A stretch of 64,000 nt of DNA from Pseudanabaena sp. FACHB-1998. Its GTDB lineage: Bacteria; Cyanobacteriota; Cyanobacteriia; Pseudanabaenales; Pseudanabaenaceae. The translations under genes were made by a program, and so were the position numbers. Under the pieces are notes generated by a model, which saw only the letters and a program-made list of their open reading frames with translations, did no database searches and was not told the DNA's origin. Position 1 is the first letter of the stretch, and each line of letters begins with the position of its first letter. Location: NCBI RefSeq assembly GCF_014696355.1, contig NZ_JACJQA010000006.1, positions 62,001 through 126,000 on the forward strand, written 5' to 3'. Shown one piece after another: positions 5,479-25,484 of the stretch.

Positions 5479-8400
5479 ATGATTCCTTTAAAAAGTAGTA
5501 GAAATTCGCTAATATCTAGCGCTTGGTTGAAGGCTCAGAGATTTGGTGCTTTATCTATAATCACGCTTACCGCGATCGCTTTATTCCCCTCGGCAGCAAA
5601 AGCGCAAATTCAGGTAGATGGCACTACTGCTACGGAAGTTAAAGGAAATATCATCTCGCCCACAGGGACAGGAACTGCCAATGGCGGCAACCTGTATAAC
5701 AGCTTCGATAAATTTAACGTGCCGAGTTCGGGCGTAATTTTTAATACAGGTACTTCATCGGTTGATGGTACAAAAGTTAACAATATTATTAATCGGGTTA
5801 CTGGTGAGACTCCCTCTAGTATTCTTGGCACAATTCAAAGTCGTTCCGCATTTCCTAATGCCAATCTCTTTTTACTAAATCCTAACGGTGTAGTTTTTGG
5901 AACCAATGCAAGATTGGACATTGGTGGTTCTTTTCATGTCACTACGGGAACGGGGCTAGGATTTGACAACAATCAGCAATTTAGCGTAGACAAAAACTCC
6001 TTAAATTTTCCCAGTGGCGATGTCCAAAACATTCAATTTGCGATCGCCCAACCCGCCGCCATTATCAATCAAGGGAACTTGTCAGTTGATGCTGGTAAAA
6101 GTATTTCCTTTACGGCGGGTTCCATCGTCAACACTGGTGTATTGACTGCGCCTAGTGGCAATGTGGCTTTGACTGCGGTAGCGGGAGGTTCTTTAGTGGA
6201 TCTGCGATCGCCTGATACCGTTTTAGGTTTGAGCGTTCTAAAGAATGCCATACCCACTAATTGGAATGGCACGATTTCCTCTTTGCCAAAGCTGGCGGAG
6301 TTACTAACGGGGCAAGTTGCCCAAGCTAATCAAGTTGTGGTTAAGCCCGATGGGAGTATTGCGTTGGTTGCTAGTCCTAGCGCCTCAGACCTTGTGGTGA
6401 AGGATGGCATGGCGATCGCCTCTGGCAAGATCGATGTATCTTCTAATATTGCTAAGGGTGGAAATGTTGGCATATTTGGGAATCAAGTTGGATTGGTCAA
6501 TTCCTTGATTAATGCTTCTGGTAATACTGGTGGTACGGTTTTGATCGGTGGCGATTTTCAGGGTAAGGGTGTTGTACCTAATGCTTTACAGACCTATGTG
6601 AATAGCAGTTCACAAATATTCGCGAATGGATTGTTAACTGGTGATGGCGGTAAGGTAATTATTTGGGCGGATCGTGCGACTCAGTTTTATGGGGCGATCA
6701 CGGCAAGGGGTGGCGATATATCAGGCAATGGCGGCTTTGTGGAAGTATCGGGTAAACAGAATTTAGTTTTTGATGGCAATGTAGATGTCAGGGCAGCGAA
6801 TGGAAAAATAGGAACATTACTTTTAGATCCCACTGATATTACGATTAGTACATCTGTAAATACCCCGACACTCACTTTAGGAGGTGTTTTCTCAGATGCT
6901 GTCACAACTCCCTCCAATCTTAATATTGCCACTCTACAGGCTCAATTAGGTTTAAGCAATGTAACTGTTTCTACTGCTTCGGGATTGGGTGGATTAGGGA
7001 ATATCACTATCAACTCTCCGCTTACTTTATTTAGCACCAACACTCTTACGTTACAGGCAGATAATGATATCAATCTTAATGCCGCGATCGCTATTCCGGG
7101 CAGTACAAATCTTATTTTTAATGCAGGGAGAGACTTCAATGGAGTCGCACCAACCATATCTGTTCGGGATATTACAATTACTGCGGCTACTGGAAATATC
7201 ACATCGGGTATCATTCGCTCGGACATTACATCTGACCCTAATCGAAATGCTGGAAATATTACTCTCTCTGCTCCCAATGGCAATATTACAACTGGCGATT
7301 TAACAGCACGAGTTAATCTCATAGTAGTTGGTGATGCTGGCAATGGTGGTGCGATCGCTGTTACTTCCAGAGGAGATATTAGCACTGGCAATCTCCAAAG
7401 TTCTTCTAATGCTTCTAGTGGCAATTCTGGAAATGGTGAAAATATCACGCTAGTCAGTAACTCAGGAAACATCTCGACAGGATTCTTTATTTCTAGTGCC
7501 AATGGCAACGGAAATGCTGGCAATATCTCCATTAATGGTCTGAATTTAGCGATCGACGGTAATATCGACCTTTCGGCTGTGTCTGGAAGAGCAGGAGATC
7601 TTACCCTCACGGGGAATCTAGATCTAACGACAAATAAGACGTTATCCACCAGTGGTGGGATTAGTGGGAATATTGACCTATCCAATGCAAATATCACAGG
7701 CAATCAATCGCTCACGATTAATGCTGGCTCTGGTAATGTGACTTTAGGAGCCGTTGGGAATAGTACAACATCTTTTGGCGATTTGAGTATTGCTTCAAAT
7801 GGTGCGACAACTTTTAACAATCCAGTTTTTGCTAATACTATTATATCTACTTCTACTTCTGGCAATACGATTATTAATAGAAATCTAACCGCAACAGGAG
7901 TACAAGGAAATGGAATTAGACTTCGCAACCTTACAATTAACGGTAACATCTCGTTAACTGGCGATGAAATTAATTTATTAGGAAATGGAACTGGCACGGG
8001 GAATTTAGTTCTTTCTCCTTTTAGCATTGGTCAAGCGATCGCGATATCAGGAGCCAATGACACAGGAAATACTACTCTCGATATCACTACAACCGATCTT
8101 TCTGCTTTATCAGGCGTTACGCTTGGTTCTTTGACAATTGGCAATCCCCTTGGCACTGGCGCAATTACCTTGGCAGGAAACACAACTTTCAATCAATCAA
8201 CCACGATACAATCACCTGCTGGTCTTGGCACGATCAATACTTCAGGTTTTAATTTAACAAATACTGGAGGTTCCATTACTCTCTTAGCTAATCAGAATGT
8301 TACGACTAGAAATATTACGGCAGCAGGAAATGCGATCGCGATTACCAGTAACTTAGGCGCGATTGATACTAGTTTAGGACAGATAGTCACTACAGTATTA

Positions 8401-11400: not shown

Positions 11401-14016
11401 ACAGGAATCAGCTTTACTAATAGCGACACTACACTTAGCAAAGATATTTTTGTCAATGGCTCTTTAGATTTTAGAAATCCCGTAACCTTAACTAAGGATG
11501 TAACCATAAACAGTAGCAATATTACATTTAGAGATACGGTTAATGGAAGTCAAGCACTTAGCCTTAACGCTAGCAGTGGAAACATTATTTTCAATAGCTC
11601 GGTGGGAGCGATATCAGCTTTGGGAAGCATCACCGCCAATAGTTCGGGAATTACCAGATTTAATGGCACAGTAAATGCTGCAAGTCTGACAACTGATGCG
11701 GTTGGAACCACCGAACTAAATGCCAACGTTACCACTTCAGGCGCTCAAATCTATAATGATGCCGTAAATCTCACCAATGCAATTCAGTTAACTACAGCTA
11801 ATAATGCGATCGCCTTCAATGCGCCCCTAAACGGTGCATTTGACCTTGTCTTAAATACTAATGGCAATTTCATTTTTGCCAGTGGAGCGATCGGCAACAC
11901 GACTCCCTTAGCAAGTCTGGCGATCGCCCCAACCAGCACCCTCACTTCCAGTAACGGAATTAACATCATTACCAACGGCAATATTTTTACAGGGGCGATC
12001 GGCAATGCAGGTAAACCGATATCCCTAACTAGTAATGTAGGCGCAATTACCATTTTTAAAAGCATTACCACCGCAAATCTCACTGGACAAGGAGGAAACA
12101 TTGCCCTAAACGCAAATGGTAACTTGACTACAGCCGATATTGACTCTAGCAGTAAGAGTAATCAGGGAGGGTCAGTATTTCTGACTAGTCAAACTGGCGT
12201 AATATCCACAGGCAATATTAATTCTTCAGGGAAAGTCGGTGGGGAGATATTCTTTAATGCATCCACTGCAATTAATGCAGGCGTAATTAACTCTAGTGGA
12301 ACTGACAAAGCAGGAGATGTTACTCTTGATCCTTCGGGTGATGTGGTTGTCCAGTCCATTGATGCCTCTAGTTTTCTCCAAGGCGGTAACGTGACGCTAG
12401 TAAGTACAGGCGGTAATCTGAGGATAACGAATTCTATTTTGAGCAGTCTTATAGCTTCTTGCACTGGCTCCAGCATCTGTACTAGTGGCGGCACAGGTGG
12501 TAGTATCTCCCTCCAAACTGGAGGATTAAATCCCTTTATTGTTGGCGATCCTCGTCTGAATGGTTCCTTTCGTATTTTAACTACAGGACTTTCCACCATT
12601 GACTTAAATACGAGTATTCCTGCGGTATTTGGCAAAATATTTATCGAGGGAGGGATTTCTATCGCCCCCGGGACTCTGCCAGCGATTACCACAACGACCT
12701 TTGATCCCCCACCTACTTCTCCGCCAATCATTAATAATGATCCCAAAGACGAAACTCCCATCGGCGCTAGCGATATATACAAAAAAGAGGTCGATCGCTA
12801 CTTATCAGAAGGTAATCTGGAAAAAGCTTTTGAGGCAATCGAGAATGCTTATAACTCAGAGCTACAAGCCTATTCAGGCAATAAACTTGATTTCACGGGA
12901 TTAACCCTTGAAAAAGCTCAGGACGAACTTCAAATAGTTGCCGAGCGGACTGGCGATGTGGCTTCGCTTATTTATCCCATTTTGCTAGACAATCGGATTG
13001 AAATCTTAGTCATTCCTCCCAAGGGAACTGGGAAACCATTCCGTCGTTTTTCTACAACCGCAAATCAAGCGACTGTAGAAGCATTGATTACAGATTATCG
13101 TAATAATTTGCGAGATGTTGGCTCCAATGACTATTTAGAACAATCGCAAAAGCTCTATGACCTGATCATTCGCCCCATCGATAGTCAATTGACGGCGATG
13201 AAAATTAAGACCTTGGTATTTGTGATGGATAGTGGCTTGCGAGTTTCACCACCTGCGGCTTTGCATGACGGCAAACAATTTCTGATCGAACGCTACGCAC
13301 TTGCTAATCTACCGACCATGCGTGCTGCTCGTATTGAAGAACGCGATCGCAAAGCAATTCGCGTATTAGCCATGGGATTAACGGAATCTAGAGAGGAATT
13401 TGGTGCTTTACCTTCGGTCGATATTGAAATCAAAACCATTGCTTCTAATGTATTGAGTGGAACTTCATTTTTAAATAAAGACTTTACTGTCAGTAACCTA
13501 CAAAACCAGAGAACACAAGGCATCTATAATATATTGCATTTAGGAACTCATGCTAAATTTGTCAGCGAAACTAATCAAGATTCCTTTATTCAGTTTTGGG
13601 ATAGTCGTCTTAAGTTAAGTCAAATTCCTAATTTGCGATTCGATAATCCCGTAATTGATATGTTGACTTTGAGTGCTTGTCAAACCGCAGTGGGAAATAA
13701 CTTAGGCATTAGCGGCTTAGCTGTAGAATCTGGGGCAAAAAGTGTGTTGGCTTCCCTATGGGAAGTTTCTGATGCTGGGACGGCTCCCTTGATGATTAGT
13801 TTTTATAAAGCTTTTCCTGAAGCAGTCAATAAAGCTCAGGCTATACAAAAAGCTCAAATAAGTTTGCTGAATGGTACAGTCAAGATTCAAAGTAATCAAA
13901 TAGTAGGTATTGAAGGCTTTCCGACTATTCCTTTGCCTTTAGAATTGGGTTCTTCTATCAACCTTAGTCATCCCTTTTATTGGTCTTCATTCATTCTTGT
14001 GGGTAATTGGCTATAG
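5479..14016 (+). CDS. Giant two-partner-secretion exoprotein with C-terminal CHAT protease domain
   Basis: A predicted secreted or surface protein of 2845 aa. A signal peptide ends at A42 (PSAAKA-QIQVDG). Residues about 43-290 are a filamentous-haemagglutinin-type TPS secretion domain with the N134-P-N-G motif, normally recognised by an outer-membrane TpsB pore. Residues about 290-2480 are a long beta-helical array rich in G-N-I-[ST]-T and NGG repeats. A Pro-rich linker, a short TPR-like helical segment (SEGNLEKAFEAIENAY) and a CHAT domain (about 2560-2845) follow. The CHAT domain carries the caspase-type dyad H2691 (HLGTHAKF) and C2734 (LSACQTAVG). It is a paralogue of the gene at 16963. No tpsB gene is nearby. 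The array contains an internal duplication 945 bp apart. Substrate and target are unknown. Confidence 0.88.
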   Translation: MIPLKSSRNSLISSAWLKAQRFGALSIITLTAIALFPSAAKAQIQVDGTTATEVKGNIISPTGTGTANGGNLYNSFDKFNVPSSGVIFNTGTSSVDGTKVNNIINRVTGETPSSILGTIQSRSAFPNANLFLLNPNGVVFGTNARLDIGGSFHVTTGTGLGFDNNQQFSVDKNSLNFPSGDVQNIQFAIAQPAAIINQGNLSVDAGKSISFTAGSIVNTGVLTAPSGNVALTAVAGGSLVDLRSPDTVLGLSVLKNAIPTNWNGTISSLPKLAELLTGQVAQANQVVVKPDGSIALVASPSASDLVVKDGMAIASGKIDVSSNIAKGGNVGIFGNQVGLVNSLINASGNTGGTVLIGGDFQGKGVVPNALQTYVNSSSQIFANGLLTGDGGKVIIWADRATQFYGAITARGGDISGNGGFVEVSGKQNLVFDGNVDVRAANGKIGTLLLDPTDITISTSVNTPTLTLGGVFSDAVTTPSNLNIATLQAQLGLSNVTVSTASGLGGLGNITINSPLTLFSTNTLTLQADNDINLNAAIAIPGSTNLIFNAGRDFNGVAPTISVRDITITAATGNITSGIIRSDITSDPNRNAGNITLSAPNGNITTGDLTARVNLIVVGDAGNGGAIAVTSRGDISTGNLQSSSNASSGNSGNGENITLVSNSGNISTGFFISSANGNGNAGNISINGLNLAIDGNIDLSAVSGRAGDLTLTGNLDLTTNKTLSTSGGISGNIDLSNANITGNQSLTINAGSGNVTLGAVGNSTTSFGDLSIASNGATTFNNPVFANTIISTSTSGNTIINRNLTATGVQGNGIRLRNLTINGNISLTGDEINLLGNGTGTGNLVLSPFSIGQAIAISGANDTGNTTLDITTTDLSALSGVTLGSLTIGNPLGTGAITLAGNTTFNQSTTIQSPAGLGTINTSGFNLTNTGGSITLLANQNVTTRNITAAGNAIAITSNLGAIDTSLGQIVTTVLGNGTSGSILLRAQGDIKTGTLSSSVLFNGNAGNISLITTGGSIDTSLGFVSASVGNSGTTGNAGNITYQATGNITSSGISSIANNGNGGQISLTASGDISTINISSFARNGNGGLISLITSGNISTAAISSDSDNGNAGDIIINATNGNIFASDIISARTFSASPLSTAGSISLDALNLIFSSNFIPTLSSSAIAGTAKDITLKGNLPLTSNLTFLTSSNTGTSGNIDLANANITGSQSLTLNAGTGNVALGAVGTSLVPLTVLIVTSGNTTLNNDIFTTNALNFNSPVILLGNAALTTTNSVIAFNNTVNGNQALSLNAGTRSIFFNGIVGGVTPLGSLTTNASSTITSTGSIEINTIGDINTGNITNNGRNVSLITTGTIAGNITVGRVLTNSATLAGDILLQATGNITAKGNISSIANLGNSGKISVISTNGSIDTSLVTVESKSFNGGNSGEILYQATGDINANIVDANVQLGSGNGAKVSFITTGGSISTFAVSSVSFIAGNSGDIFYQASGNIATGNSGISTYNEGTGNGGKISLISTAGSIDTRNSFIYNYGNTGNAGDTLFQAAGNITTGVIVSNTPKANGGKLSLISSGSINTSFGGISTGGLDSVDIILQAADSITTGLIESSNGVGNGGNISLQANSNITTTGDIRKNVLSGNGGKISFVTSAGNIDTSLTRTVITTTDQGTSGEISYQANGNITTGETITNGSSIFLQATGNITATRRISSIANPGNSGKISLISTGGSIDTSLVTIESRGFNGGDSGEILYQAVGNITANIVDANVLLGSGNGANISFITTGGSISAFAISSVSSINGNSGNILLNARDSITTQNLTASATNGNGGNITLQTTGVATVTTGNIDTSSNTGNGGNIAIAAPNGTINTPFLFAFTTSANPNSKAGLVTLNTNNLALGGGINVSAARGIDVSAANGKGSNFEFSGDLLLLSDVTISTAGLAGSGNINLANANITGNQTLFLNAGNGSIVLGAIGSSTNAITGISFTNSDTTLSKDIFVNGSLDFRNPVTLTKDVTINSSNITFRDTVNGSQALSLNASSGNIIFNSSVGAISALGSITANSSGITRFNGTVNAASLTTDAVGTTELNANVTTSGAQIYNDAVNLTNAIQLTTANNAIAFNAPLNGAFDLVLNTNGNFIFASGAIGNTTPLASLAIAPTSTLTSSNGINIITNGNIFTGAIGNAGKPISLTSNVGAITIFKSITTANLTGQGGNIALNANGNLTTADIDSSSKSNQGGSVFLTSQTGVISTGNINSSGKVGGEIFFNASTAINAGVINSSGTDKAGDVTLDPSGDVVVQSIDASSFLQGGNVTLVSTGGNLRITNSILSSLIASCTGSSICTSGGTGGSISLQTGGLNPFIVGDPRLNGSFRILTTGLSTIDLNTSIPAVFGKIFIEGGISIAPGTLPAITTTTFDPPPTSPPIINNDPKDETPIGASDIYKKEVDRYLSEGNLEKAFEAIENAYNSELQAYSGNKLDFTGLTLEKAQDELQIVAERTGDVASLIYPILLDNRIEILVIPPKGTGKPFRRFSTTANQATVEALITDYRNNLRDVGSNDYLEQSQKLYDLIIRPIDSQLTAMKIKTLVFVMDSGLRVSPPAALHDGKQFLIERYALANLPTMRAARIEERDRKAIRVLAMGLTESREEFGALPSVDIEIKTIASNVLSGTSFLNKDFTVSNLQNQRTQGIYNILHLGTHAKFVSETNQDSFIQFWDSRLKLSQIPNLRFDNPVIDMLTLSACQTAVGNNLGISGLAVESGAKSVLASLWEVSDAGTAPLMISFYKAFPEAVNKAQAIQKAQISLLNGTVKIQSNQIVGIEGFPTIPLPLELGSSINLSHPFYWSSFILVGNWL
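9612..9937 (+). repeat. Internal in-frame duplication, copy 1 (second at about 10557-10882)
   Basis: The stretch encoding LQATGNITAKGNISSIAN through SVSFIAGNSGDI recurs 945 bp downstream (315 codons) with high nucleotide similarity, including the string GGTTCTATTAGT. It is the clearest long repeat among the many short degenerate beta-helix rungs in the exoprotein. Confidence 0.75.
10557..10882 (+). repeat. Internal in-frame duplication, copy 2
   Basis: Partner of the block at 9612-9937. It encodes LQATGNITATRRISSIAN through SVSSINGNSGNI. The phase is kept, so the array length changes without loss of frame. Confidence 0.75.
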
Positions 14017-14065
14017 ATTCCCAAGTAGAGATGGATCGCTCAACATTGCCGAACAAACGAACCAT

Positions 14066-14114
14066 AATAAAAGTTTTGAAAGCGTTGCAAAGCAACGCTT
14101 TCAAAACTTTTATT
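14066..14114. terminator. Bidirectional terminator between convergent genes
   Basis: Perfect 22-bp arms (14066-14087 and 14093-14114) with a CAAAG loop lie between the first TPS-CHAT gene and the opposing FecR/TPR gene. The right flank GGTTTGGGTTTGAGCGCAAA is also found, inverted, beside the hairpin at 61995-62045, so this is a repeated element as well. Confidence 0.65.
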
Positions 14115-14211
14115 GGTTTGGGTTTGAGCGCAAACTACTTGATTAGCGGACAAATCTCCCCAAAAAGCACCTTGATGTGTAAGTTCTTCAGACGCGGTAA
14201 CTTTAAAATAC

Positions 14212-15291
14212 TTACGAATCCAAAACCTTGCTAATCCACTCACCCACCTGCTGAATCTTAGCGTTATCTTTTAAACTTGTATAATTAGCCAGAGCAAGCT
14301 CTAAATATTTCTTTGCCTCCTCCTTGTTTCCATTCACCACAAATACCTTCGCCAAACCAATCTCCGCCTCCGCTACAACCTCTGGATTTTGTGCCGACTT
14401 CGCCAAATCTAACGCCCTACGATAATGTAACTCCGCTATTTCCCGCAACCCAATCTGCAAATAGGAATTACCCAACATTTGTTCCACGATCGCCACCGAC
14501 TGCCCCGACTGACTTGCCTTTTCTAACACTGCGATCGCCTGTTCCGCCAATCCATAGTCATTGTAAATATCCGCCAAGGCGATCGCCTTCGCAATCTCGG
14601 GCAACCCTTGATTTTTTTCAATCACCGCAATACTATTACTTACCTCTTTCCTACTCTTCTCGGACAAAACCTTAAACCGTAATCGAAATTCAGAGTTATT
14701 AACTCCCACAGACTTAACCAGAAGATTATAAATAGTATCCGCTTCTAAAGGCTGATCACCGACATAGCTAACCTTAGGACAATTCACTTGGCGATCGAGC
14801 AAATTTGGCTTTTGGCGTGTTCCCACCTGTACCTGATATCCTGTCGTTCCACTCCTAGGCTGCCAGCGAATTACTTGCTTGGCATCAAGTAAATTCACCG
14901 TATAAAAACGCAAACCGAGATACTTCAAAAAGTCATCCTCACTGCGTGTATTAGAAGGATCGCGATCGCCTCTAGTAACGCTAGCTATCCTGACAGATTG
15001 TGGACAGATTTGAGGTAATCCTGAAAAAGTACCCGACCCCACTGTTCGCACTTGACCATCGGTACACATAATTTCTAATACAGAACCAATTTCAGGCTTG
15101 ATTAAATCCCCCTGTTTAATCACCATCCCAAACCTTGCTCGCTGGCTTGCTCCATCCCGAACCACGATCGCATTAGGAGTCAAGGAAGTAATGCGCGCAT
15201 TGGCAAATGTAATTTCAGGAAAACTGATTGCTGTAAGCGTACTCACGCTACAAAATAATATCCCTTGCCAAATCTTAATTCTTCCTTGCAT
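14212..15291 (-). CDS. Exported FecR-like and TPR-repeat protein
   Basis: 359 aa. An N-terminal hydrophobic segment (residues about 8-30) looks like a signal peptide. Residues about 35-110 resemble a FecR/SH3-like beta domain (IVVRDG ... VIKQGDLIKPEIGSVLEI). A middle beta-rich part contains TVNLLDAKQVIRWQP, like the fibronectin-type segments of related proteins. The C-terminal half is helical TPR repeats (ALADIYNDYGLAEQAIAVLEKA, then AELHYRRALDLA). Its start codon lies 2 bp after the stop of the upstream TPR membrane gene, so the two form an operon. Similar exported FecR/TPR proteins accompany CHAT-type genes in cyanobacteria. A periplasmic scaffold for the neighbouring exoproteins is inferred, not shown. 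Confidence 0.7.
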   Translation of the reverse strand: MQGRIKIWQGILFCSVSTLTAISFPEITFANARITSLTPNAIVVRDGASQRARFGMVIKQGDLIKPEIGSVLEIMCTDGQVRTVGSGTFSGLPQICPQSVRIASVTRGDRDPSNTRSEDDFLKYLGLRFYTVNLLDAKQVIRWQPRSGTTGYQVQVGTRQKPNLLDRQVNCPKVSYVGDQPLEADTIYNLLVKSVGVNNSEFRLRFKVLSEKSRKEVSNSIAVIEKNQGLPEIAKAIALADIYNDYGLAEQAIAVLEKASQSGQSVAIVEQMLGNSYLQIGLREIAELHYRRALDLAKSAQNPEVVAEAEIGLAKVFVVNGNKEEAKKYLELALANYTSLKDNAKIQQVGEWISKVLDS

Positions 15292-16616: not shown

Positions 16617-16962
16617 GCCATTTCAAGCGATTATCATAAACTAAAATGCGAGAAAAAGGGATAAGTTAATAGTACTTTTCAGTGCTACTCCCTTCCCATC
16701 CAAAGACTAGTGTGCGGAACTACTTAACTGTCCAGTGCCAAACTTTAATAACTAAGTTTTTTGTAAGACAATTATGATTAATTTAGATTACTATGATTGT
16801 TAGCATTAGATATTTTTAGCAATAGTCATCAGCATTAGGACAAATCGTAAAATCAAGAAGCTGGTGGCAGTACTTCGCACTGTCATCCATACTCTTATGG
16901 TTTCCTACCAAGACTGGTTATCGCTATACTAATCCGAACATATTATTTCACAGTCATCCAAT
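16617..16962. other. Divergent promoter region of the TPR operon and the second TPS-CHAT gene
   Basis: 346 bp between divergent genes, so both promoters should be here. A TATACT hexamer at 16925-16930 lies about 33 bp before the rightward start and could be a -10 box; no good -35 is seen. The stretch TGGCAGTACTTCGCACTGTCA near 16864-16884 forms a weak palindrome. No gene is evident. Confidence 0.45.
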
Positions 16963-19900
16963 ATGTCTTTAGTCTGTAACAATCCAAACAACTCTTCAAA
17001 TTTTAGCGTCTTACTAAAGGCAAATTGCTTGGGTGTTTTTGCTGTTGCTGTCAATTTTTTGACTATCCCCCTAGATGCTTATGCTCAGCTCGCAGTTGAT
17101 GGTTCCACGGCAACAGAAGTAAGAGGAAGCGTAATTTCTCCCACAGGCGCAGGAACAGTCAACGGTGGCAATTTATACAATAGCTTTCAAGAATTTAATG
17201 TACCGGCTAGTGGAGTCGTTTTCAATACAGGGGGGGCTACGGTTGAAGGCAACAAAATTAATAACATCATCAATCGCGTCACAGGGGAAAATCCATCAGC
17301 AATTCTCGGCACAATTGAAAGCCGCCAAGCCTTTCCCAATGCCAATCTGTTTTTGCTCAATCCCAATGGAGTCATATTTAGCCCCAACGCTAAGTTAGAT
17401 ATCGGCGGCTCTTTTAATGTCAGCACAGGTACTGGATTAGGCTTTGATCAAAACCAGAAATTTATCGTAGATCAGAACTCTCTCAATTTTCCCAGTGGTG
17501 ATCCTAAAAGTATTCAATTAGCAGTTAGCCGACCTGCGGCAATCATCAATCAAGGCAATCTGAGTGTTGCAGCGGGCAAGGATATTACCATCACCGCAGG
17601 CACTGTGATTAATTCGGGTAATTTATCTGCACCCAGTGGCAACGTGAGCTTGACGGCTGTATCAGGAAATAGTCAAGTGGAATTGCGATCGCCTGATCTG
17701 GTATTAAGTCTAAGCGTTCTTAAGAATGCTATCCCAACTAATTGGAATGGCACGATTTCCTCTTTGCCAAAACTAGCGGAATTATTAACAGGGCAAGCCG
17801 CCCAAGCTAATCAAGTTGTGGTTAAGCCCGATGGAAGTATTGCCTTGGTTGCTAGTCCTAGCGCCGCAGATATTGTGGTGAAGGATGGCATGGCGATCGC
17901 CTCTGGCAAGATCGACGTATCTTCTAATCTTGCGAAAGGTGGAAATGTTGGCATATTTGGGAATCAAGTCGGATTGGTTAATTCCTTGATTAATGCTTCT
18001 GGCAATACTGGTGGGGGGACGGTTTTGATCGGTGGCGATTTTCAGGGTAAGGGAATTGCGCCTAATGCTTTACAGACTTATGTGGATCGTAGTTCGCAAA
18101 TATTCGCGAATGGATTATTAACTGGTGATGGCGGGAAAGTAATTATTTGGGCGGATCGTTCGACTCAGTTTTATGGGGCGATCGCGGCAAGGGGTGGCGA
18201 CATATCAGGCAATGGCGGCTTTGTGGAAGTATCGGGAAAAGATAATCTCATTTATCAGGGTCAGACGGACACCCGCGCTATCAATGGCACAACAGGAACC
18301 CTACTTCTCGATCCTCAAAATATTAATATCGTCGCAGGTATTGATGCTCCTGCTCAATTAGCCGCTAACGATCAATTTGCCGATCCACCTACTCCTGGAA
18401 CAAGCAACATTAATAATGGCACAATTAATGCAGCAACTTCTGACGTAGTTCTGCAAGCCACAAGGGATATAATTTTTGGCGCTCCAATTAATATTGCGAC
18501 TTCGCGTATTGGCGTTACGGCTCAAGCTGGTAATAGTGTTTTTGTAACCTCTTCCATTACTACTAATAGAGGCAATGTTAATTTTACAGCAAATACTGGT
18601 TCCGCTCCAACAGGTTTAGGCAATATCTCAATTGGCAATGCTATTACAACAAATGGCGGGGCGGTCAATTTACAAAATAGCGGTGGCATTGGGGGCATTG
18701 GTATTGATGCTCCAATCACTACTAATGCTCCAATCACTACTAATGATGGGGCGATTGATATTAGGACTACCAATAGTTCTATTCAACTCAGAGGAAATCT
18801 TTCGTCTGGTGCAGGCGATATTAATGTAATTGGCAATGGTCAATCTGTTGGGATACAGGTGAATAATAGCGCTAAAATCTCTACTACCTCTGGCACAATC
18901 ACACTCAATGGTACTGGTAGTAATATTACTAATGACAGAGTTGGTTTAAGTATAGTTGGCGATAGTTCTATTGAGATTACCTCAGGTAGTGGAAATATTA
19001 ATCTCATAGGCAATGTTACCAATACTTTAGGGTCTAGTGGAATTGAATTCATCTCATTTGAACCTTCTAATCCTTCTGTTGGTGCTGGTAATTTAATAAA
19101 AATTCAAACCATCAGTGGCAATATCAATATCAGGGGCAACACGGCTAATCCTAACCAATTGGGTATCAATATTCCAAATCCGATTGGCACATTAACTATT
19201 GATAGTGGCTCAGGCAATTTGACGTTTACTAGTGATAGAAGTGTGTTCCCTAACATTGCTTTCAAGGGATCAGGGACTTTAAGCTTACAGCCCTTTAGCA
19301 ATAATACTTCATTAGAGATTAATAGCGGTGTAACTAATACTTCAGGTGTCACCACGAAGGTATTTGCAGATAAATCATTCTTTGATGCTCTTGCGGCTAG
19401 TACTGGTACTAATGGCTTTACGAATATCGCAATTGGCAGCACGACAACCAGTAATCCAATCACTCTAACGACTCCCGTCAACCTAACATCTCCATTACAG
19501 TTAAATTCCAATAATGGCACGATCGCCTTTAGCAATACGATAGATGGTAATCAAAATTTAACTGTAAATGCTGGAACTGGCGATATATTCATTAATAATT
19601 CTATTGGAAGCACCACTCCGTTAGGCAATATCATTCTCAATAGTTCAGGAAGAACTATCTTTAACATTGCAATCAATGCCGCAAGCTTGACTACTGATGC
19701 AGTTGGAACTACTGAATTAGGCGCGGTTGTCACGACTTCAGGCACGCAAACTTTTAATGATGCTGTCAATCTCTTCAATCCAATTCAGTTAAATACGACT
19801 AATAGCGCGATCGCCTTCAATAACACAATTAATGGAATTAATGGAATTAATGGAAACCAAAATCTAAATGTAAATTCTGGAACTGGAAATATAACCTTTA

Positions 19901-22900
19901 ATGGAGCAATTGGTAACCTTACGCCCTTAGGAAACATCATTGCTAATAGCTCAGGAATTACTAGATTTAACAGCCCAGTAAATGCAGCAAGCTTGACCAC
20001 CGATGCTGTGGGGACTACCGAACTAAGCGCGAATATCACCACTTTAGGCACACAAACTTACAATGATGTCGTAACTCTTACAAGCCCCAATGCGGTTCAG
20101 CTAAATACGACTAACAGTGCGATCTCCTTCAATAACACAATTGATGGAAATCAAGACTTAAACATAAGCACTGGGACATCAAATATTACATTTAATGTTG
20201 CTGTCGGTGCGACAAGTGCTTTAGGAAACATCACTATTGATGCCACAAGTACAGCCATATTTAATAGCAGCATTAATGCCGCCAGTTTAACAGTTGGCAA
20301 GATCGAACTAAAGGGCAATGTTACGACTTCAGGTACTCAGACCTACAACGATACAATCACTTTGGTGGTTCCAGCACAGTTCACAACCACTAATAGCGCG
20401 ATCGCTTTCAATAACACAATTGATGGAAATCAAGACTTAACCGTAAATTCTGGAACTGGAAATATAACCTTTAATGGAGCAATTGGAAACACCACTCCGT
20501 TGGGTAATATCATTCTCAACAGTTCAGGAATTACTAGATTTACTAGTCCTGTCAATGCCGCAAGCTTGTCTACTGATGTAGGTGGAACTACTGAATTAAA
20601 TGCCAACATTACCACTTCAGGCACACAAACCTACAATGATGCTGTCAGTCTGATCTTTACAAGTGTCATTCCAATTCAGTTAAACTCTACTAATAGCGCG
20701 ATTACTTTTAACAATAAGATTGATGGAGATCGAAGCTTAAATATCAATTCTGGAAATGGTAACATAACCTTCGGTGATGCAATTGGGATATTAGGAGTTC
20801 TCGCGACTAATAGTTCAGGAACTACCAGATTTAATAGTTCAGTCAATGCCGTAACCTTGACAAGCGGTGGTGGTGGAACTACTGAGCTAAATGCCAACAT
20901 CACTACCTCATCTTTTCAAAATTACTTAAATTCTGTCAATCTCACCAATGCTGTTCAGTTAAAATCAGGCTTTTTGCTATTTGATGCTCCTGTTAATGGA
21001 GCCTTTGACCTCATCTTGAATACTAACACTCCTATTTTTGCCAATGCCGCGATCGGCAACACAACTCCTCTCGCTAGTCTAGCGATCGCCCCGACAAGCA
21101 CACTCACAACCTCTAACGTGATTAACATAATTGCTAACGGCAATATCTCCACAGGGGCGATCAGCACTAGCACAGGAACGCCCATCAATACTAAATCAGT
21201 CTCTCTAACTAGTAATGCGGGTTCAATTAATGTGCAGGGAAACATCACGACCGCAAACCTCACGGGACAAGCAGCCAACGTCACCTTGCAAGCAAATCAA
21301 AATGTAACTATCGCAAATATTGACTCTAGGGGTAATACTATTCAGGGGGGAGCAGTATCACTGACTAGTCAAACTGGAAGCATAGCCACAGGCAATATTA
21401 CCACTTCAGGAAAAGTTGGTGGAGAGATATTCTTCAAGGCATCTACAGCAATTAATGCAGGGATCATTAACTCTAGTGGAACTGACAAAGCAGGAAATGT
21501 GACTCTCGACCCTTTGCGTGATGTGGTCGTAAGTTCCATTGATGCCTCTAGCCTCATCCAAGGCGGCAACGTGAAGCTTGTAAGTACAGGTGGCAATCTG
21601 AGAATAACAGATTCTATTCTCAGCAGTCTTGTAGCTTCCTGTAACGGCTCCAGTATCTGCACCAGTGGCGGTACGGGTGGCACTATCTCTCTGCAAACTG
21701 GAGGGTTAAATCCCTTTATTGTCGGCAATCCTAACCCTAACGGTTCCGTCGGTATTTTAACCACAGGAATTTCCACCATTGCCTTAAATACAAGTATTCC
21801 CGTTGCTTTAGGGCAAACCTTTATTGAGGGAGGTATCTCCATCTTCCCCGGAACTCGGTCAGGAGGTTCTTCAGGAACTACTCCCTTTGAACCCCTACCT
21901 AAGACTTGTGTTGTATGTGATGGTAATAATAGCAGCAATAATGGTGAACAGAATAATAGCAATGGTGGTGTAATAGACACTAGCGACATAAACAAAGGAA
22001 ATGCTGATAAAGAGTTAAGTGCAGGTAATCTCGACAAAGCATTTGTTTCAATTGAGAGTGCCTATGTTTCCGAGCTACAAGCCTTTTTAGGCAATAAAAT
22101 TAACTCCACTGAGTTAACCCTCGACCAAACTCAGGATGAACTTGGGCGACTTGCCGATCGCACTGGTGATATCGCCACACTTATTTATCCAATTTTGCTC
22201 CGCGATCGCATTGATATTTTGGTGATTCCTCCTAAAGGAATTGGGGTTCCCTTCCGTCGTTCTTCTACAGCAGCAAATAAAGCTACTGTGGAAGCATTAA
22301 TTACAGAGTACCGTAGTAATTTACAAAATCCTAATTCCAATGACTATCTAGAACAATCACAAGATCTCTATGACTTGATCATTCGCCCCATCGATAGTCA
22401 ATTAACGGCGATGAAAACTCAGACCTTAGTATTTGTGATGGATGGGGGCTTGCGGGTAATGCCCTCTGCGGCTTTCTATGATGGCAAACAGTTTTTGCTC
22501 GAACGCTATGCGATCGCGCATATTCCTTCTTTCCGTGCTATTCGTCTCGAAGAGCGCGATCGCAAAACCACAAAGGTTTTGGCTATGGGTTTAACCGAAG
22601 CTGTGCAAGGATTTAGTGCGTTGCCCTCTGTGGATACTGAAATTAAAACTATTTCTTCTGATCTCTCCAAGGGCAGCATATTCTTAAATAAAGAATTTAC
22701 CGTTAATAATCTGCAAAGCCAGCGCCAGCGAGGACAATATAACATTGTCCATTTGGGAACCCATGCTCAATTTGTCAGCAAAACGAGTAAGGATTCTTTC
22801 ATTCAGTTCTGGGATAGTCGTTTACGTCTATCCGAAATTCCTAAATTGAACTTTAATAATCCTGTAATTGATCTGTTGACCTTGAGTGCTTGTGAGACTG

Positions 22901-23229
22901 CCGTAGGCAATAATTTAGGAATTGCTGGATTGGCGGTGGATTCGGGAGCGCGGAGCGTTTTAGCATCTCTCTGGCAGGTTTCGGATGCTGGAACTGCTCC
23001 ATTGATGATTAGTTTTTATAAAGCTTTTCCTGAAGCCTTAAATAAAGCTCAAGCCATACAGAAAGCTCAAAAAAGTTTGCTGAATGGTACAGTCAAGCTT
23101 CAAGGTAATCAAATAGTAGGTATTGAAGGGTTTCCTAATATTTCTTTGCCTTTAGAAGTGGGTTCTTCTATCAACCTCAGTCATCCCTTCTACTGGTCTT
23201 CCTTCATTCTTGTCGGTAATTGGCTATAG
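16963..23229 (+). CDS. Second giant TPS exoprotein with C-terminal CHAT protease domain
   Basis: 2088 aa, a paralogue of the protein at 5479-14016 with the same plan: signal peptide ending at A41 (LDAYA-QLAVDG), TPS secretion domain with the N-P-N-G motif, a shorter beta-helical array built on T-T-N-S-A-I-A-F-N-N-T and T-T-S-G-T-Q-T-Y-N-D units, a linker rich in N and S, and a CHAT domain with H1934 (HLGTHAQF) and C1977 (LSACETAVG). Both proteins end in HPFYWSSFILVGNWL. A tract around 17715-18240 matches the first gene far better than the flanking TPS sequence does. Presumed cell-surface or released; the role of the protease is unknown. It is followed by its own terminator. Confidence 0.88.
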   Translation: MSLVCNNPNNSSNFSVLLKANCLGVFAVAVNFLTIPLDAYAQLAVDGSTATEVRGSVISPTGAGTVNGGNLYNSFQEFNVPASGVVFNTGGATVEGNKINNIINRVTGENPSAILGTIESRQAFPNANLFLLNPNGVIFSPNAKLDIGGSFNVSTGTGLGFDQNQKFIVDQNSLNFPSGDPKSIQLAVSRPAAIINQGNLSVAAGKDITITAGTVINSGNLSAPSGNVSLTAVSGNSQVELRSPDLVLSLSVLKNAIPTNWNGTISSLPKLAELLTGQAAQANQVVVKPDGSIALVASPSAADIVVKDGMAIASGKIDVSSNLAKGGNVGIFGNQVGLVNSLINASGNTGGGTVLIGGDFQGKGIAPNALQTYVDRSSQIFANGLLTGDGGKVIIWADRSTQFYGAIAARGGDISGNGGFVEVSGKDNLIYQGQTDTRAINGTTGTLLLDPQNINIVAGIDAPAQLAANDQFADPPTPGTSNINNGTINAATSDVVLQATRDIIFGAPINIATSRIGVTAQAGNSVFVTSSITTNRGNVNFTANTGSAPTGLGNISIGNAITTNGGAVNLQNSGGIGGIGIDAPITTNAPITTNDGAIDIRTTNSSIQLRGNLSSGAGDINVIGNGQSVGIQVNNSAKISTTSGTITLNGTGSNITNDRVGLSIVGDSSIEITSGSGNINLIGNVTNTLGSSGIEFISFEPSNPSVGAGNLIKIQTISGNINIRGNTANPNQLGINIPNPIGTLTIDSGSGNLTFTSDRSVFPNIAFKGSGTLSLQPFSNNTSLEINSGVTNTSGVTTKVFADKSFFDALAASTGTNGFTNIAIGSTTTSNPITLTTPVNLTSPLQLNSNNGTIAFSNTIDGNQNLTVNAGTGDIFINNSIGSTTPLGNIILNSSGRTIFNIAINAASLTTDAVGTTELGAVVTTSGTQTFNDAVNLFNPIQLNTTNSAIAFNNTINGINGINGNQNLNVNSGTGNITFNGAIGNLTPLGNIIANSSGITRFNSPVNAASLTTDAVGTTELSANITTLGTQTYNDVVTLTSPNAVQLNTTNSAISFNNTIDGNQDLNISTGTSNITFNVAVGATSALGNITIDATSTAIFNSSINAASLTVGKIELKGNVTTSGTQTYNDTITLVVPAQFTTTNSAIAFNNTIDGNQDLTVNSGTGNITFNGAIGNTTPLGNIILNSSGITRFTSPVNAASLSTDVGGTTELNANITTSGTQTYNDAVSLIFTSVIPIQLNSTNSAITFNNKIDGDRSLNINSGNGNITFGDAIGILGVLATNSSGTTRFNSSVNAVTLTSGGGGTTELNANITTSSFQNYLNSVNLTNAVQLKSGFLLFDAPVNGAFDLILNTNTPIFANAAIGNTTPLASLAIAPTSTLTTSNVINIIANGNISTGAISTSTGTPINTKSVSLTSNAGSINVQGNITTANLTGQAANVTLQANQNVTIANIDSRGNTIQGGAVSLTSQTGSIATGNITTSGKVGGEIFFKASTAINAGIINSSGTDKAGNVTLDPLRDVVVSSIDASSLIQGGNVKLVSTGGNLRITDSILSSLVASCNGSSICTSGGTGGTISLQTGGLNPFIVGNPNPNGSVGILTTGISTIALNTSIPVALGQTFIEGGISIFPGTRSGGSSGTTPFEPLPKTCVVCDGNNSSNNGEQNNSNGGVIDTSDINKGNADKELSAGNLDKAFVSIESAYVSELQAFLGNKINSTELTLDQTQDELGRLADRTGDIATLIYPILLRDRIDILVIPPKGIGVPFRRSSTAANKATVEALITEYRSNLQNPNSNDYLEQSQDLYDLIIRPIDSQLTAMKTQTLVFVMDGGLRVMPSAAFYDGKQFLLERYAIAHIPSFRAIRLEERDRKTTKVLAMGLTEAVQGFSALPSVDTEIKTISSDLSKGSIFLNKEFTVNNLQSQRQRGQYNIVHLGTHAQFVSKTSKDSFIQFWDSRLRLSEIPKLNFNNPVIDLLTLSACETAVGNNLGIAGLAVDSGARSVLASLWQVSDAGTAPLMISFYKAFPEALNKAQAIQKAQKSLLNGTVKLQGNQIVGIEGFPNISLPLEVGSSINLSHPFYWSSFILVGNWL

Positions 23230-23241
23230 ATATAAATTTTC

Positions 23242-23284
23242 CCCAAAGAGAGATGCAGCGCTTCGCGCTGCATCTCTCTTTGGG
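23242..23284 (+). terminator. Terminator hairpin of the second exoprotein gene
   Basis: Perfect 20-bp arms (23242-23261 and 23265-23284) with a TTC loop and a GCAGCGC tip, followed by TTTTAG. The tip resembles that of the dispersed family A/B hairpins. Confidence 0.75.
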
Positions 23285-23346
23285 TTTTAGCGGTAGTTAT
23301 TAAGTCTACAGATGGTATAACTTTGGTGATAGGTTAGTATAAAAAA

Positions 23347-23817
23347 ATGGCTGGAGTTTACAAACTAAACATCACCGAAAGTGTTGAAGAACTCAAGCAG
23401 ATCATGAAAAAGCAAAAAAATCCATCCGATAAGGATCGGGTACAACTGCTGTATTTGCTCAAGAGTGAACAGACAAAAACGGTACAAGATGCGGCAAAAA
23501 TGCTAGGCAAGCATCGAGTTACAGTACAAGAGTGGCTAAAGTTGTACCGCGATGGTGGAATTATCGAATTGCTTAACCACAAGCCGCGCGTCGGTCGCAA
23601 GCATAGTATTCCGCAATGGGCTCAGGATGCTTTAAGCCAACGCTTGCAAACGGGAGAGGAATTTAAAAGCTACCACGAAATTTGTCAATGGTTAGAAAAG
23701 CAATTGGGAATCGTATCAACTTATAAGACGGTGCATCAATTAGTGAGATATCGTCTCAAAGCCTTGCCCAAAGCATCACACACTACTAGCCCTAGTAGTA
23801 CTTCGGAACAATCATAA
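23347..23817 (+). CDS. IS630-type helix-turn-helix protein (orphan transposase N-half)
   Basis: 156 aa. Residues about 25-75 form a homeodomain-like HTH (DAAKMLGKHRVTVQEWLKLY) and about 85-140 a winged-helix segment (ALSQRLQTGEEFKSYHEICQ, then STYKTVHQLVRYRLKA). This is the N-terminal DNA-binding half of IS630/Tc1-type transposases, which in many cyanobacterial copies is a separate ORF. The DDE catalytic half is absent: the gene ends in a Ser/Thr tail, and the next gene runs the other way. It is either a stranded orfA or a domesticated DNA-binding protein. No terminal repeats were found around it. Confidence 0.7.
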   Translation: MAGVYKLNITESVEELKQIMKKQKNPSDKDRVQLLYLLKSEQTKTVQDAAKMLGKHRVTVQEWLKLYRDGGIIELLNHKPRVGRKHSIPQWAQDALSQRLQTGEEFKSYHEICQWLEKQLGIVSTYKTVHQLVRYRLKALPKASHTTSPSSTSEQS

Positions 23818-23821
23818 AAAT

Positions 23822-23850
23822 AAAAAAGCCTTGCAAAGCAAGGCTTTTTT
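23822..23850. terminator. Bidirectional terminator between the HTH gene and tolC-like gene
   Basis: 13-bp arms (23822-23834 and 23838-23850) with an AAA loop. The outer bases are an A-run on the left and a T-run on the right, so it can stop both converging transcripts. Confidence 0.8.
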
Positions 23851-23855
23851 ACTTT

Positions 23856-25484
23856 TTAAAGCCCGCTAACGGCACGTTCCAGATTAGCGCGAGACTGGTT
23901 ATAGCCAATGATCGCTTGGACTCGGTTAACATCGGCGCGAGTGAAATCCGACTCAGCATTAATCACTTCAAGCTGTGTGCCAACTCCAGCGTCAAGACGC
24001 AATCTAGCCAAACGTAGAGCCTCTTCAGCTTGCTGCACGGCTTTGGTGGCGGTTTCAATTTGCTGACGACGCGATCGCTGATTGATAAAGGACTCTTCGA
24101 CATCATAGCGAGCTTGGCGAGCCGCTTGCTCAAAGCGACTTTCGGCTAAGGCTTGATCGGCTTTAAACTGATCCACCTGAGCCGAAGCTCTGCCCCCATC
24201 GTACAGATTCCATTCCAGTCTTGCGCCCAACTGATAGCCCGTGCCGATGCCCCCGCCACTCGTAAATTCAGACGCAGTATTCACGTTAGCAAAGACACTA
24301 ACTTGGGGACCCAATCGGGCAAGGGAAGTATTAGCGCGATCGCGGGCTACTTCCCGCTCCAGCTTACGAGTATCTAATTCGGCGCGATTCCTGACAGCAA
24401 GAACGATGGTTTCCTCTAAAGGCAATTTCCATTCGGATACAGGTTCGATTTTATCAGCAGCCGTAATTTCCACGGTGGGCGGATAGTTAAGCTGGCGGGA
24501 CAATTCGCGTCGGGCGACCAATTGCGCGGCTTCAGCATTAAATAAATCTTGTTTTGCATTAGCTAGTTGGACTTCTGACTGCAAAACGTCAAATTTCGTC
24601 CCAACCCCTGCCCTTTCCCTTGCTTGGGTGTCCTTCAGACTCTTTTCCGCATTTTCCACGGCTTTCCGTCGAATGCGAATGGTTTCATCGGCATTTTGTA
24701 AGTTGTAGTAGCCAGTAACAATTCCTAAGCGTAGAGCTTGCCTAGCCCGATTTAGATCTGATTCAGCAATGCGTAAGTTATTTTCGGCTACGCGAATTGT
24801 GTAATCATTAACGCCAGAGTCAAAGAGGTTATAGGAAACACCTACAGTACCCGAAAGCGGATTGCTGATGGTGTTACTGGATATATTACCTGTGCTATTT
24901 GTACTCCTATTAATATTGCTCAACCTTGATTGGGCGGAATCGTTGTAGCTATATTGCAAGGAACCTGTAACAGTTGGCGATCGCCCTGCCTCGGCTTCGG
25001 CTAGAGCCGCACGGGCGCGATCAATTGCAATACGGGCTTGAATCCAATCCGAGTTAGTTCTTTCGACTAAGTCCAGCAGTTCCTGAAGCGTGACTGCTTT
25101 GGTGTTCTCTAACTTAACTTGGCTCGGTGTGGTAGGTACAACTAAGGTCTGCGAGGGATCGAGCTTTCCGGGGGCGGATACAGAAGCGCTGGGTAAGACT
25201 CTCGCGGGTTCTGTCGAGCTAATGAGTACAGGCTGCGATCGCTTAGTTTCTTGATTGTCTAAGGTTACAGGAATTGTTAAAGCCTCTGGGGTTAATACCT
25301 CTGGCTTCGCTGCAACTTTAAATTCAAATATATTAGTGGATGAGGTTATTTGGGTGTCAGGCTCTAGGACGACCTTGGTAACAGGGCGTAGAGGTATTGT
25401 AAACTCTTGAGCATTGGCTGTCCAAGCTGGAATCAGAAGCGATACACTCGCACCAAGCGTCAACCAACTGGAAGAAATTCGCAT
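23856..25484 (-). CDS. TolC-family outer-membrane efflux protein
   Basis: 542 aa. A signal peptide (residues 1-25, ending TANA) is followed by a Pro/Val-rich N-terminal extension of about 120 residues found in cyanobacterial TolC proteins. Two outer-membrane-efflux repeats then begin at about 130 (TLQELLDLVERTNSDWIQAR) and 345 (LPLEETIVLAVRNRAELDTR), each rich in long amphipathic helices with A-E-A-x-L-x-x-A-R patterns. The trimer would form the outer-membrane channel for type I secretion or drug efflux. No adaptor or ABC gene is adjacent, so the inner-membrane partner is elsewhere. The nearby TPS exoproteins normally use TpsB rather than TolC, so a link is not assumed. Confidence 0.88.
   Translation of the reverse strand: MRISSSWLTLGASVSLLIPAWTANAQEFTIPLRPVTKVVLEPDTQITSSTNIFEFKVAAKPEVLTPEALTIPVTLDNQETKRSQPVLISSTEPARVLPSASVSAPGKLDPSQTLVVPTTPSQVKLENTKAVTLQELLDLVERTNSDWIQARIAIDRARAALAEAEAGRSPTVTGSLQYSYNDSAQSRLSNINRSTNSTGNISSNTISNPLSGTVGVSYNLFDSGVNDYTIRVAENNLRIAESDLNRARQALRLGIVTGYYNLQNADETIRIRRKAVENAEKSLKDTQARERAGVGTKFDVLQSEVQLANAKQDLFNAEAAQLVARRELSRQLNYPPTVEITAADKIEPVSEWKLPLEETIVLAVRNRAELDTRKLEREVARDRANTSLARLGPQVSVFANVNTASEFTSGGGIGTGYQLGARLEWNLYDGGRASAQVDQFKADQALAESRFEQAARQARYDVEESFINQRSRRQQIETATKAVQQAEEALRLARLRLDAGVGTQLEVINAESDFTRADVNRVQAIIGYNQSRANLERAVSGL

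Follow-up and report, generated by a model that had tools for sequence, protein, structure and literature searches.

Two TPS-CHAT exoproteins flanking a TPR gene pair in Pseudanabaena sp. FACHB-1998: a putative surface protease-signalling system

Results

The window analyzed here is a 64,000-nt stretch of the genome of Pseudanabaena sp. FACHB-1998. Its ORF list, combined with domain searches, confirms two giant exoprotein genes where the preliminary description had placed them, each with a TPS and a CHAT domain and an intact His/Cys pair: P1 (5479..14016, + strand, 2845 aa), a TpsA-type exoprotein, and P2 (16963..23229, + strand, 2088 aa). Both have the same domain order, consisting of a signal-peptide-like start (judged by eye), a TPS secretion domain, a beta-rich stalk and one C-terminal CHAT domain. 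The TPS domain of P1 (PF05860; 5601..6206, +; G000:C56:67602-68207 in the genome search) directly follows the signal-peptide-like start, and that of P2 (residues 42-246; 17086..17700, +) was found by Pfam as well as by the genome search. The CHAT domains span 13141..14007 (+) in P1, as seen in the Pfam match and the structure model, and 22354..23220 (+) in P2 (Pfam match). Alignment places the predicted catalytic residues at His2691 (13549..13551, +) and Cys2734 (13678..13680, +) of P1, the latter being the sole cysteine of its CHAT region, and at His1934 (22762..22764, +) and Cys1977 (22891..22893, +) of P2. Each protein holds a single CHAT domain, so the 'array' form proposed earlier does not apply; likewise, the two genes had been presented as a pair, whereas the genome search counts six TPS-CHAT genes, with 21 CHAT matches in this genome overall.

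Two genes on the - strand separate P1 from P2. The first, lying 195 bp beyond the 3' end of P1 and opposed to it, encodes a 359-aa TPR protein with a signal-peptide-like start (14212..15291, -); the second encodes a 440-aa membrane TPR protein (15294..16616, -) with a helical N-terminal part, two predicted TM segments and C-terminal TPRs. As judged from the coordinates, the TPR pair and P2 start divergently on either side of a 346-bp intergenic region (16617..16962), which may hold shared control elements. The opposed pair was thus correctly described, except for the label 'FecR' given to the 359-aa product, which is unproven: no FecR family was matched in Pfam (E up to 1) or NCBIfam (E up to 0.001), and only TPR-type matches rose above chance. 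Downstream of P2, a 117-bp gap is followed by a gene for a 156-aa HTH protein (23347-23817; HTH matches only in the domain search) and a TolC-like gene (23856-25484), for neither of which a tie to the TPS-CHAT system was found. Shared synteny of the giants was not seen, the six window neighbours being unmatched at E ≤ 1e-30 among the ORFs of loci L042-L093, the window's own contig excepted.

In the genome search, PF05860 matches P1 at E 7.1e-35 and P2 at E 1e-33. A separate Pfam domain search reported the TPS domain of P2 and not that of P1, while NCBIfam gave no match at all for P1 and only a haemagglutinin N-terminal domain for P2. Fold comparison bears out the predicted TPS-type fold: the TPS-domain model, confident only in part (mean pLDDT 58), matches the secretion domains of EtpA and HMW1 (8cpk, 2odl; E ~6e-8). 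Moreover, the TPS domains of P1 and P2 share one clade with those of operon-encoded TPS-CHATs (support 1.0, 21 members). These features suggest that both proteins are exported as TpsA-type proteins. TPS export runs from the N- to the C-terminus, so that the C-terminus exits last and may remain near the outer membrane; the earlier placement of CHAT at the fibre tip is therefore not supported.

No TpsB gene is found among the window ORFs of at least 80 aa, nor on the 202-kb contig. The expectation that the pore is encoded elsewhere proved right, as the genome search revealed an orphan, unlinked TpsB (POTRA plus barrel; G000:C25:18557-20392) that groups with TpsBs encoded beside TPS-CHATs (support 1.000). 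It is 58-61% identical to its six nearest relatives in the tree set and at most 41% identical to the other four TpsBs of this genome. Across 23 genomes, TPS-CHAT and this TpsB clade occur together in 16, CHAT alone in 1, TpsB alone in 0 and neither in 6 (P = 6.9e-5; Fisher tests in this study are uncorrected for phylogeny); the exception is G008, a fragmented assembly in which a matching TpsB was not found. Because it belongs to the same clade as the TpsBs beside the closest TPS-CHATs and this clade co-occurs with TPS-CHATs across the genus, the C25 gene is probably the missing partner of P1 and P2, a pairing that relies on phylogeny.

The CHAT domains (PF12770) were matched with high significance at residues 2555-2843 of P1 (E 4.9e-55) and 1798-2086 of P2 (E 8e-59), with bit scores of 187 and 200 against a curated cut-off of 24. 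A sequence profile of the CHAT region gave no match to PDB sequences at E ≤ 0.01, and fold comparison alone was informative: the P1 CHAT model (pLDDT 86.7) matches TPR-CHAT of Craspase (Z 29.9), separase (Z ~25), the transmembrane anti-sigma factor DdvA (Z 20.7) and gingipain R (Z 18.5). The CHAT end is conserved (78-80%) between P1, P2 and C25, and dN/dS between the CHAT domains of P1 and P2 is 0.139/0.850.

Loss of the catalytic pair in orthologues was looked for, and the pair turned out to be intact throughout. It is kept in 41/41 aligned sequences, and the His and Cys motifs are present in all 73 distinct fused TPS-CHATs, 72 of which have the catalytic cysteine as the sole one of the CHAT region. 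This set includes L095 and excludes exact duplicates (L096, L099, L101, L135); also outside it are L056 (2805 aa, giant-type CHAT), which lacks a TPS match, and C7b of this genome, which is split between L044 and L045 and whose CHAT part has both catalytic residues. Within this genome, where 20 of the 21 CHAT matches were compared, all 14 exported-type CHATs have one cysteine and all 6 cytosolic-type CHATs have 3-6 (Fisher P = 2.6e-5, uncorrected for phylogeny). The lone catalytic cysteine of fused CHATs, as opposed to 3-6 in the cytosolic type, fits export together with a retained active site. Single cysteines also occur beyond the fusions, as 26 of 48 other CHAT ORFs shorter than 700 aa have one and 22 have two (L094-L101 and L135 not counted). 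Outside CHAT, 9 of the 72 complete fused ORFs have an odd number of cysteines, which means that not all of these can pair within the chain. Taken from sequence and alignment, these patterns point to the CHAT domains of P1 and P2 as putative active proteases.

A non-random neighbourhood of the TPR pair had been predicted, and this is what was observed across the cyanobacterial class, though not within the genus. Relatives of the 359-aa protein have TPS or CHAT genes near them at 33 of 40 loci, within 3 kb in 27, versus 3 of 20 control stretches (P = 6e-7); the 40 loci are 40 of the 41 best non-self matches of the search (G352:C519 left out), and L225 yielded no usable ORF. Unfused CHAT genes are the neighbours in 25/40 loci versus TPS-CHAT genes in 3/40, further TPS-CHAT neighbours occurring at L113, L127 (partial) and L128 among 80 loci. 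The other three genomes in which giant TPS-CHATs were found (G001, G006 and G010) yielded no relative at E ≤ 1e-10. Together, the scarcity of fused neighbours and this negative outcome indicate that the 359-aa protein is not required for TPS-CHATs.

TpsB-TPR-TPS-CHAT operons are found in L217 and L218, in which the membrane TPR gene does not adjoin the 359-aa relative, and membrane TPR-TPR-TPS-CHAT operons in L113, L128 and L204; relatives adjoin TpsB in L217, L218 and L235, and in G021 the TPR pair adjoins unfused CHAT genes (L206). Of the 33 linked loci, 32 have at least one co-oriented CHAT or TPS gene, while the window pair lies on the strand opposite to both exoproteins. The N-terminal modules of the membrane TPR proteins (n = 36) are exchangeable: a kinase in 4 (L216 and L232 hold kinase-bearing relatives), CHAT in 3 (those of L113 and L128 showing the order CHAT-TM-TPR) and the window type in 29, one of which also has a metacaspase domain. 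The window protein itself carries no recognized output domain. Unfused TPS genes also lie beside CHAT genes in at least 34 of 75 same-genus cases among the matches listed, against 0.94 expected from those cases; the count is a lower bound, as it was taken from these matches and not from all CHAT genes. At the C1 and C63 loci of this genome, TPS, TpsB and CHAT genes are linked though unfused. By gene linkage, the opposed TPR pair appears to belong to a conserved cassette.

Discussion

P1 and P2 resemble type Vb TpsA proteins such as EtpA and HMW1 in their signal-peptide-like start, TPS fold, long beta-rich stalk and TpsB of a matching clade, yet they end in a CHAT protease and their TpsB is unlinked and apparently common to several giants. 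Csx29/TPR-CHAT of Craspase and separase, which act inside cells, have the same CHAT fold with His and Cys; P1 and P2 differ from them in predicted TPS export and in the single cysteine of the domain. The transmembrane anti-sigma factor DdvA (PDB 8rot, 8rw5) also has a CHAT-like fold, a likeness drawn from fold and structure title only. LepA of Pseudomonas aeruginosa is likewise a TPS-exported protease (PMC5422565), its protease type being unstated in the relevant part of that source, whereas the domain of P1 and P2 is a CHAT of caspase-like fold present in many cyanobacteria. Gingipains and caspase-like toxin-releasing peptidases are exported caspase-fold cysteine proteases as well, but they use T2SS, T7SS, PVC or Tc, and TPS is not named in the section concerned (PMC3482391). 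CHAT had been introduced as a gasdermin- and CRISPR-linked domain; in cyanobacteria this is not its main context, and its name derives from HetF, a divisome and heterocyst protein of the order CHAT-TM-TPR (PMC8406250). The membrane TPR proteins of L113 and L128 share this order, unlike that of the window, which lacks CHAT. Among the papers listed by topical searches of an open-access library, none deals with the TPS-CHAT architecture.

On balance, and with some reserve, we favour envelope signalling by an exported protease, with an unlinked TpsB and sensing by the TPR pair. After Sec-dependent transport across the inner membrane, P1 and P2 would cross the outer one through the C25 TpsB, which the giant TPS-CHATs of this genome would have in common. 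The stalk, presumably beta-helical, would display on the cell surface an active CHAT protease of the separase/Csx29 kind, which could there cleave a target, either in the envelope or among the exoproteins, of the same cell or colony; action on neighbouring cells is possible but unsupported. The periplasmic TPR protein and the inner-membrane TPR protein may monitor the layer of exported protease and signal its state inward, and in relatives the inner-membrane protein would carry its kinase, CHAT or metacaspase on the predicted cytosolic side.

The main rival to envelope signalling is shedding or processing of the adhesin. Here CHAT would cleave its own stalk in cis or a sibling TpsA in trans, thereby releasing or trimming the fibre, by analogy with SphB1 acting on FHA and LapG on CdrA, while the TPR pair would only aid export or anchoring. 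We regard this as rather unlikely but worth serious consideration, as separate proteases are known to mature TpsA proteins (PMC5422565), a role as releasing peptidase of secreted toxins is on record for caspase-like domains (PMC3482391), TPS, TpsB and CHAT genes are linked even when unfused, and relatives of the 359-aa protein adjoin TpsB at three loci. However, with CHAT as the final domain, self-cleavage upstream of it would free the protease instead of the fibre, and the kinase, CHAT and metacaspase modules of the membrane TPR proteins are hard to account for without signalling. That the TPR pair lies between P1 and P2 by chance, with no functional relation, is somewhat less probable still: its opposite strand, the failure to find it in the sister genomes with giants and its place beside unfused CHATs in G021 agree with chance, in contrast to the 33/40 versus 3/20 linkage and the same-strand TPS-CHAT operons in L113, L128, L204, L217 and L218.

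Contact-dependent inhibition (CDI) offers precedents for TPS exoproteins that end in a toxin (PMC5422565), and C-terminal caspase-like domains have been named likely toxins (PMC3482391), so the stalk might deliver CHAT as a toxic protease into neighbours in the manner of CdiA. CDI C-termini are polymorphic (PMC5422565), whereas the CHAT ends here are conserved in identity and in both catalytic motifs, and no immunity-type gene directly follows P1, where the opposed TPR gene lies, or P2, where the HTH gene lies. On these grounds a CDI-like weapon, which appears quite improbable, was rejected. In PADLOC, CHAT matched no model and the pair matched none but generic TPR models, and a defence system was rejected as well. 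A structural role is assumed for some caspase-fold repeats in secreted proteins (PMC3482391), but a non-proteolytic CHAT that acts as a structural or binding cap is the least plausible reading of all in view of the invariant His and Cys motifs and the lone cysteine in 72 of 73 CHAT regions.

Returning to envelope signalling, the locus has the appearance of a surface protease-signalling system not described so far. Tentatively, and with considerable doubt, it might represent a conserved envelope-spanning system of cyanobacteria that has escaped description, in which a periplasmic TPR protein, together with a transmembrane TPR receptor, reads an exported CHAT, free or TPS-stalked, and the receptor has a cytosolic output that varies with the lineage (a Ser/Thr kinase, a CHAT protease, a metacaspase or a helical membrane module). 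If true, extracellular proteolysis would be tied to intracellular outputs of the caspase-like or kinase kind, and TPS secretion would gain a new cargo class. A cyanobacterial genome can hold numerous CHAT genes without an assigned role, as the one studied here illustrates, and since the single-cysteine pattern parts exported-type from cytosolic-type CHATs in it, substrates of the former are to be sought outside the cell. The cassette, with its exchangeable kinase, CHAT and metacaspase modules, provides a path, open to testing, by which extracellular proteolysis could bear on the control of cell fate or multicellularity.

Architecture and conservation of the TPS-CHAT proteins

Both giant open reading frames proposed in the preliminary description are real: P1 (2845 aa; 5479-14016, forward strand) and P2 (2088 aa; 16963-23229, forward strand). 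Each consists, in order, of an N-terminus judged by eye to be signal-peptide-like, a two-partner secretion (TPS) domain (PF05860; E = 7e-35 in P1 and 1e-33 in P2), a long beta-rich region and a single C-terminal caspase-like CHAT domain (PF12770), with predicted catalytic dyads His2691/Cys2734 in P1 and His1934/Cys1977 in P2. The genome contains 21 CHAT and nine TPS matches, six of the latter in frame with CHAT (two on contig C7, two in the window on C56, one each on C25 and C23). The C7 genes (L044/L045; G000:C7:59139-81538) are neighbours encoding giants of 3206 and 4144 aa, with TPS domains 97% identical and identical final 40 residues, and are likely a recent tandem duplication.

A model of the P1 CHAT domain (residues 2400-2845), built from 46 aligned sequences, reached a mean pLDDT of 86.7 and a pTM of 0.87. 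Its structural matches include Craspase TPR-CHAT (Z 29.9), separase (Z about 25), the transmembrane anti-sigma factor DdvA (Z 20.7) and gingipain R (Z 18.5); Foldseek placed TPR-CHAT/Csx29 at the top and separase next. For the N-terminal part of P1 (residues 1-480), the model earned only partial confidence (mean pLDDT 58); even so, the EtpA and HMW1 secretion domains were its top matches (E about 6e-8).

The claim of an intact dyad was borne out, both motifs being present in all 73 distinct fused proteins across the loci, and both residues are kept in the alignment of 41/41 fused TPS-CHATs from the window, the rest of the genome and relatives' loci. Between the CHAT domains of P1 and P2, dN is 0.139 and dS 0.850. 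The catalytic cysteine is the only one of the CHAT region in 72 of the 73 proteins, the remaining one having two. In a comparison covering 20 of the 21 CHAT matches of the genome, exported-type CHATs have one cysteine in 14/14 cases (six TPS-CHATs and eight TPR-CHATs), against three to six in 6/6 CHATs lacking a signal-peptide-like start (Fisher, 2.6e-5); such starts were judged by eye for five TPR-CHATs and those on C1 and C38, and the start on C63 is ambiguous. This pattern fits a protein in an oxidising place that needs one free thiol, from which we infer, rather than prove, export and activity. The argument is softened because two cysteines occur in 22/48 other CHAT open reading frames below 700 aa (one in 26/48) and because cysteines outside CHAT are odd in number in 9/72 complete fused frames; among other CHAT frames of at least 700 aa, 43/45 have one.

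P1 has three cysteines in all, the catalytic one and a C-x5-C pair at the stalk end. The pair lies 183-232 residues N-terminal of the CHAT region in 18/18 giant or operon-class proteins compared, and possibly forms a small disulfide; the C23 protein, L072 and the distant families deviate from this pattern.

Fused TPS-CHAT proteins were confirmed in loci from each of ten other families, picked for TPS and CHAT apparently in one frame. Of the best 80 loci from named genomes, 32 encode a fused protein; all 80 titles are cyanobacterial. CHAT and TPS genes are linked also when unfused: within the same genus, an unfused CHAT lies within 10 kb of an unfused TPS in at least 34 of 75 rows among the matches listed, against an expectation of 0.94 under uniform placement over the same rows.

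A candidate pore encoded elsewhere in the genome

As previously noted, no gene for TpsB, the outer-membrane pore partner, was found in the window, nor was one found elsewhere on its contig. The genome has five TpsB genes (on C1, C6, C23, C25 and C63) and, on C21, a sixth POTRA match lacking a full ShlB match. In same-genus loci (L054-L073), TpsB directly adjoins 11 of 15 complete fused proteins, those 11 measuring 1341-1505 aa; the remaining four, all giants, come from L054, L055, L057 and L058, the last with a TpsB of a different clade about 4 kb off. CHAT identity to P1 is 62-68% in ten of the 11 TpsB-adjoining operons and 54% in L072. In two further loci (L069 in G009, L070 in G005), TPS stalk and CHAT are separate adjacent frames followed by TpsB, which may reflect either a genuine gene split or an interrupted frame. 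In more distant families (L074-L093), 18/20 loci hold a fused protein and 1/20 an adjoining TpsB.

In the TpsB tree, the orphan C25 gene clusters with TpsBs of TPS-CHAT operons (support 1.000), sharing 58-61% identity with its six nearest and at most 41% with the genome's other four. Likewise, the TPS domains of the window proteins and operon TPS-CHATs form a single clade of 21 (support 1.0), those of the window being only 32-38% identical to the genome's TPS domains outside it (C1, C23, C38, C63). Across 23 genomes, CHAT (identity at least 62%) and TpsB (at least 61%) occur together in 16, CHAT only in one (G008, fragmented), TpsB only in none and neither in six (p = 6.9e-5, a statistic that ignores phylogeny). 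Each of the three other genomes in which giants were found (G001, G006, G010) has an unlinked TpsB of the C25 class; the flanking sequence retrieved around it contains neither TPS nor CHAT. Taken together, both trees, the co-occurrence and these unlinked genes point to C25:18557-20392 as the probable pore for P1 and P2, serving several exoproteins in trans.

The opposed TPR pair and other neighbouring genes

Between P1 and P2 lie genes for a 359-aa protein (14212-15291, reverse strand), whose earlier label 'FecR' found no support in family searches, and a 440-aa membrane TPR protein (15294-16616, reverse strand). The 359-aa profile has matches in 66/388 Cyanobacteriia genomes (E <= 1e-10). In 40 loci around such relatives, a co-oriented membrane TPR gene lies no more than 500 bp away in 33, a TPS and/or CHAT gene is present in 33 (within 3 kb in 27), TpsB in six and a fused TPS-CHAT in three. 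Control stretches, taken at 20 round-number positions in nine of the cassette-bearing genomes, contain TPS or CHAT in 3/20 (p = 6e-7). The proposed linkage to CHAT/TPS genes in other cyanobacteria thus holds and marks the cassette as a genuine component of CHAT/TPS biology. L113 and L128, from named genomes, have a same-strand operon of membrane TPR, TPR and TPS-CHAT genes (partial in L127), and L217 and L218 have the order TpsB, TPR protein, TPS-CHAT, the membrane TPR gene being absent. In the window itself, the orientation opposite to P1 and P2 counts against a link. No convincing relative of the pair was found next to other TPS-CHATs of the genus, and a profile search at E <= 1e-10 found no 359-aa-type protein in giant-bearing G001, G006 and G010.

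L206 (G021:C2:111000-130999) carries the pair with adjoining CHAT genes on a 214,764-base replicon that agrees with plasmid NZ_AP017561.1 (Pseudanabaena sp. ABRG5-3) in length and in one CHAT coordinate; the cassette can therefore be plasmid-borne. The plasmid-borne relatives among the 12 of 72 records listed are named 'CHAT domain-containing protein', 'TPR repeat' or 'hypothetical protein', or are unannotated.

Upstream of P1 (1494-5168), a gene for a membrane protein resembling adenylate cyclases, whose cyclase and HAMP-type matches fall below cut-off, is followed after 66 bp by one for an MscS-type channel that ends in a CRP-like stretch of the cyclic-nucleotide-binding kind. The two may amount to a mechanosensitive channel under cyclic-nucleotide control and its dedicated cyclase. 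Directly after P2 comes a 156-aa protein (23347-23817; HTH_29/HTH_32) with a helix-turn-helix that we take to be of the kind starting IS630-type transposases. The opposite-strand gene for a TolC-like outer membrane efflux protein (23856-25484; PF02321, E = 1e-62) gave no evidence of membership in the TPS-CHAT system.

Exchangeable modules and a possible signalling role

In 36 membrane TPR proteins, the C-terminal TPR part is constant and the N-terminal part variable: a helical membrane module akin to the window's in 29 (the window's included), with a metacaspase domain as well in L236, a Ser/Thr kinase in four (L216, L232, L233, L238) and CHAT in three (L113, L128, L204). Receptors are typically recognised by such an exchange of modules on a constant part that lies across a membrane from them. 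Hydropathy and domain type predict a cytosolic location for the N-terminal modules; a crude hydropathy scan showed no transmembrane segment between module and TPRs in L204 and L233. The CHAT-bearing forms of L113 and L128 share the CHAT-TM-TPR domain order that an excerpt of PMC8406250 gives for HetF.

We favour an exported protease layer, its CHAT borne on TPS stalks or TPR scaffolds, whose state the periplasmic and membrane TPR proteins would pass on to effectors in the cytosol. The main rival is a role in adhesin maturation or shedding, and a CDI-like weapon is less likely. Among the papers listed in topical searches of an open-access library, none described type Vb secretion combined with CHAT and HetF-like proteins, and the excerpted section 11 of PMC3482391 names export routes for caspase-like toxin domains, TPS not being among them. 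The favoured relay would draw on known kinds of component, namely type Vb secretion, CHAT proteases and HetF-like membrane proteins.
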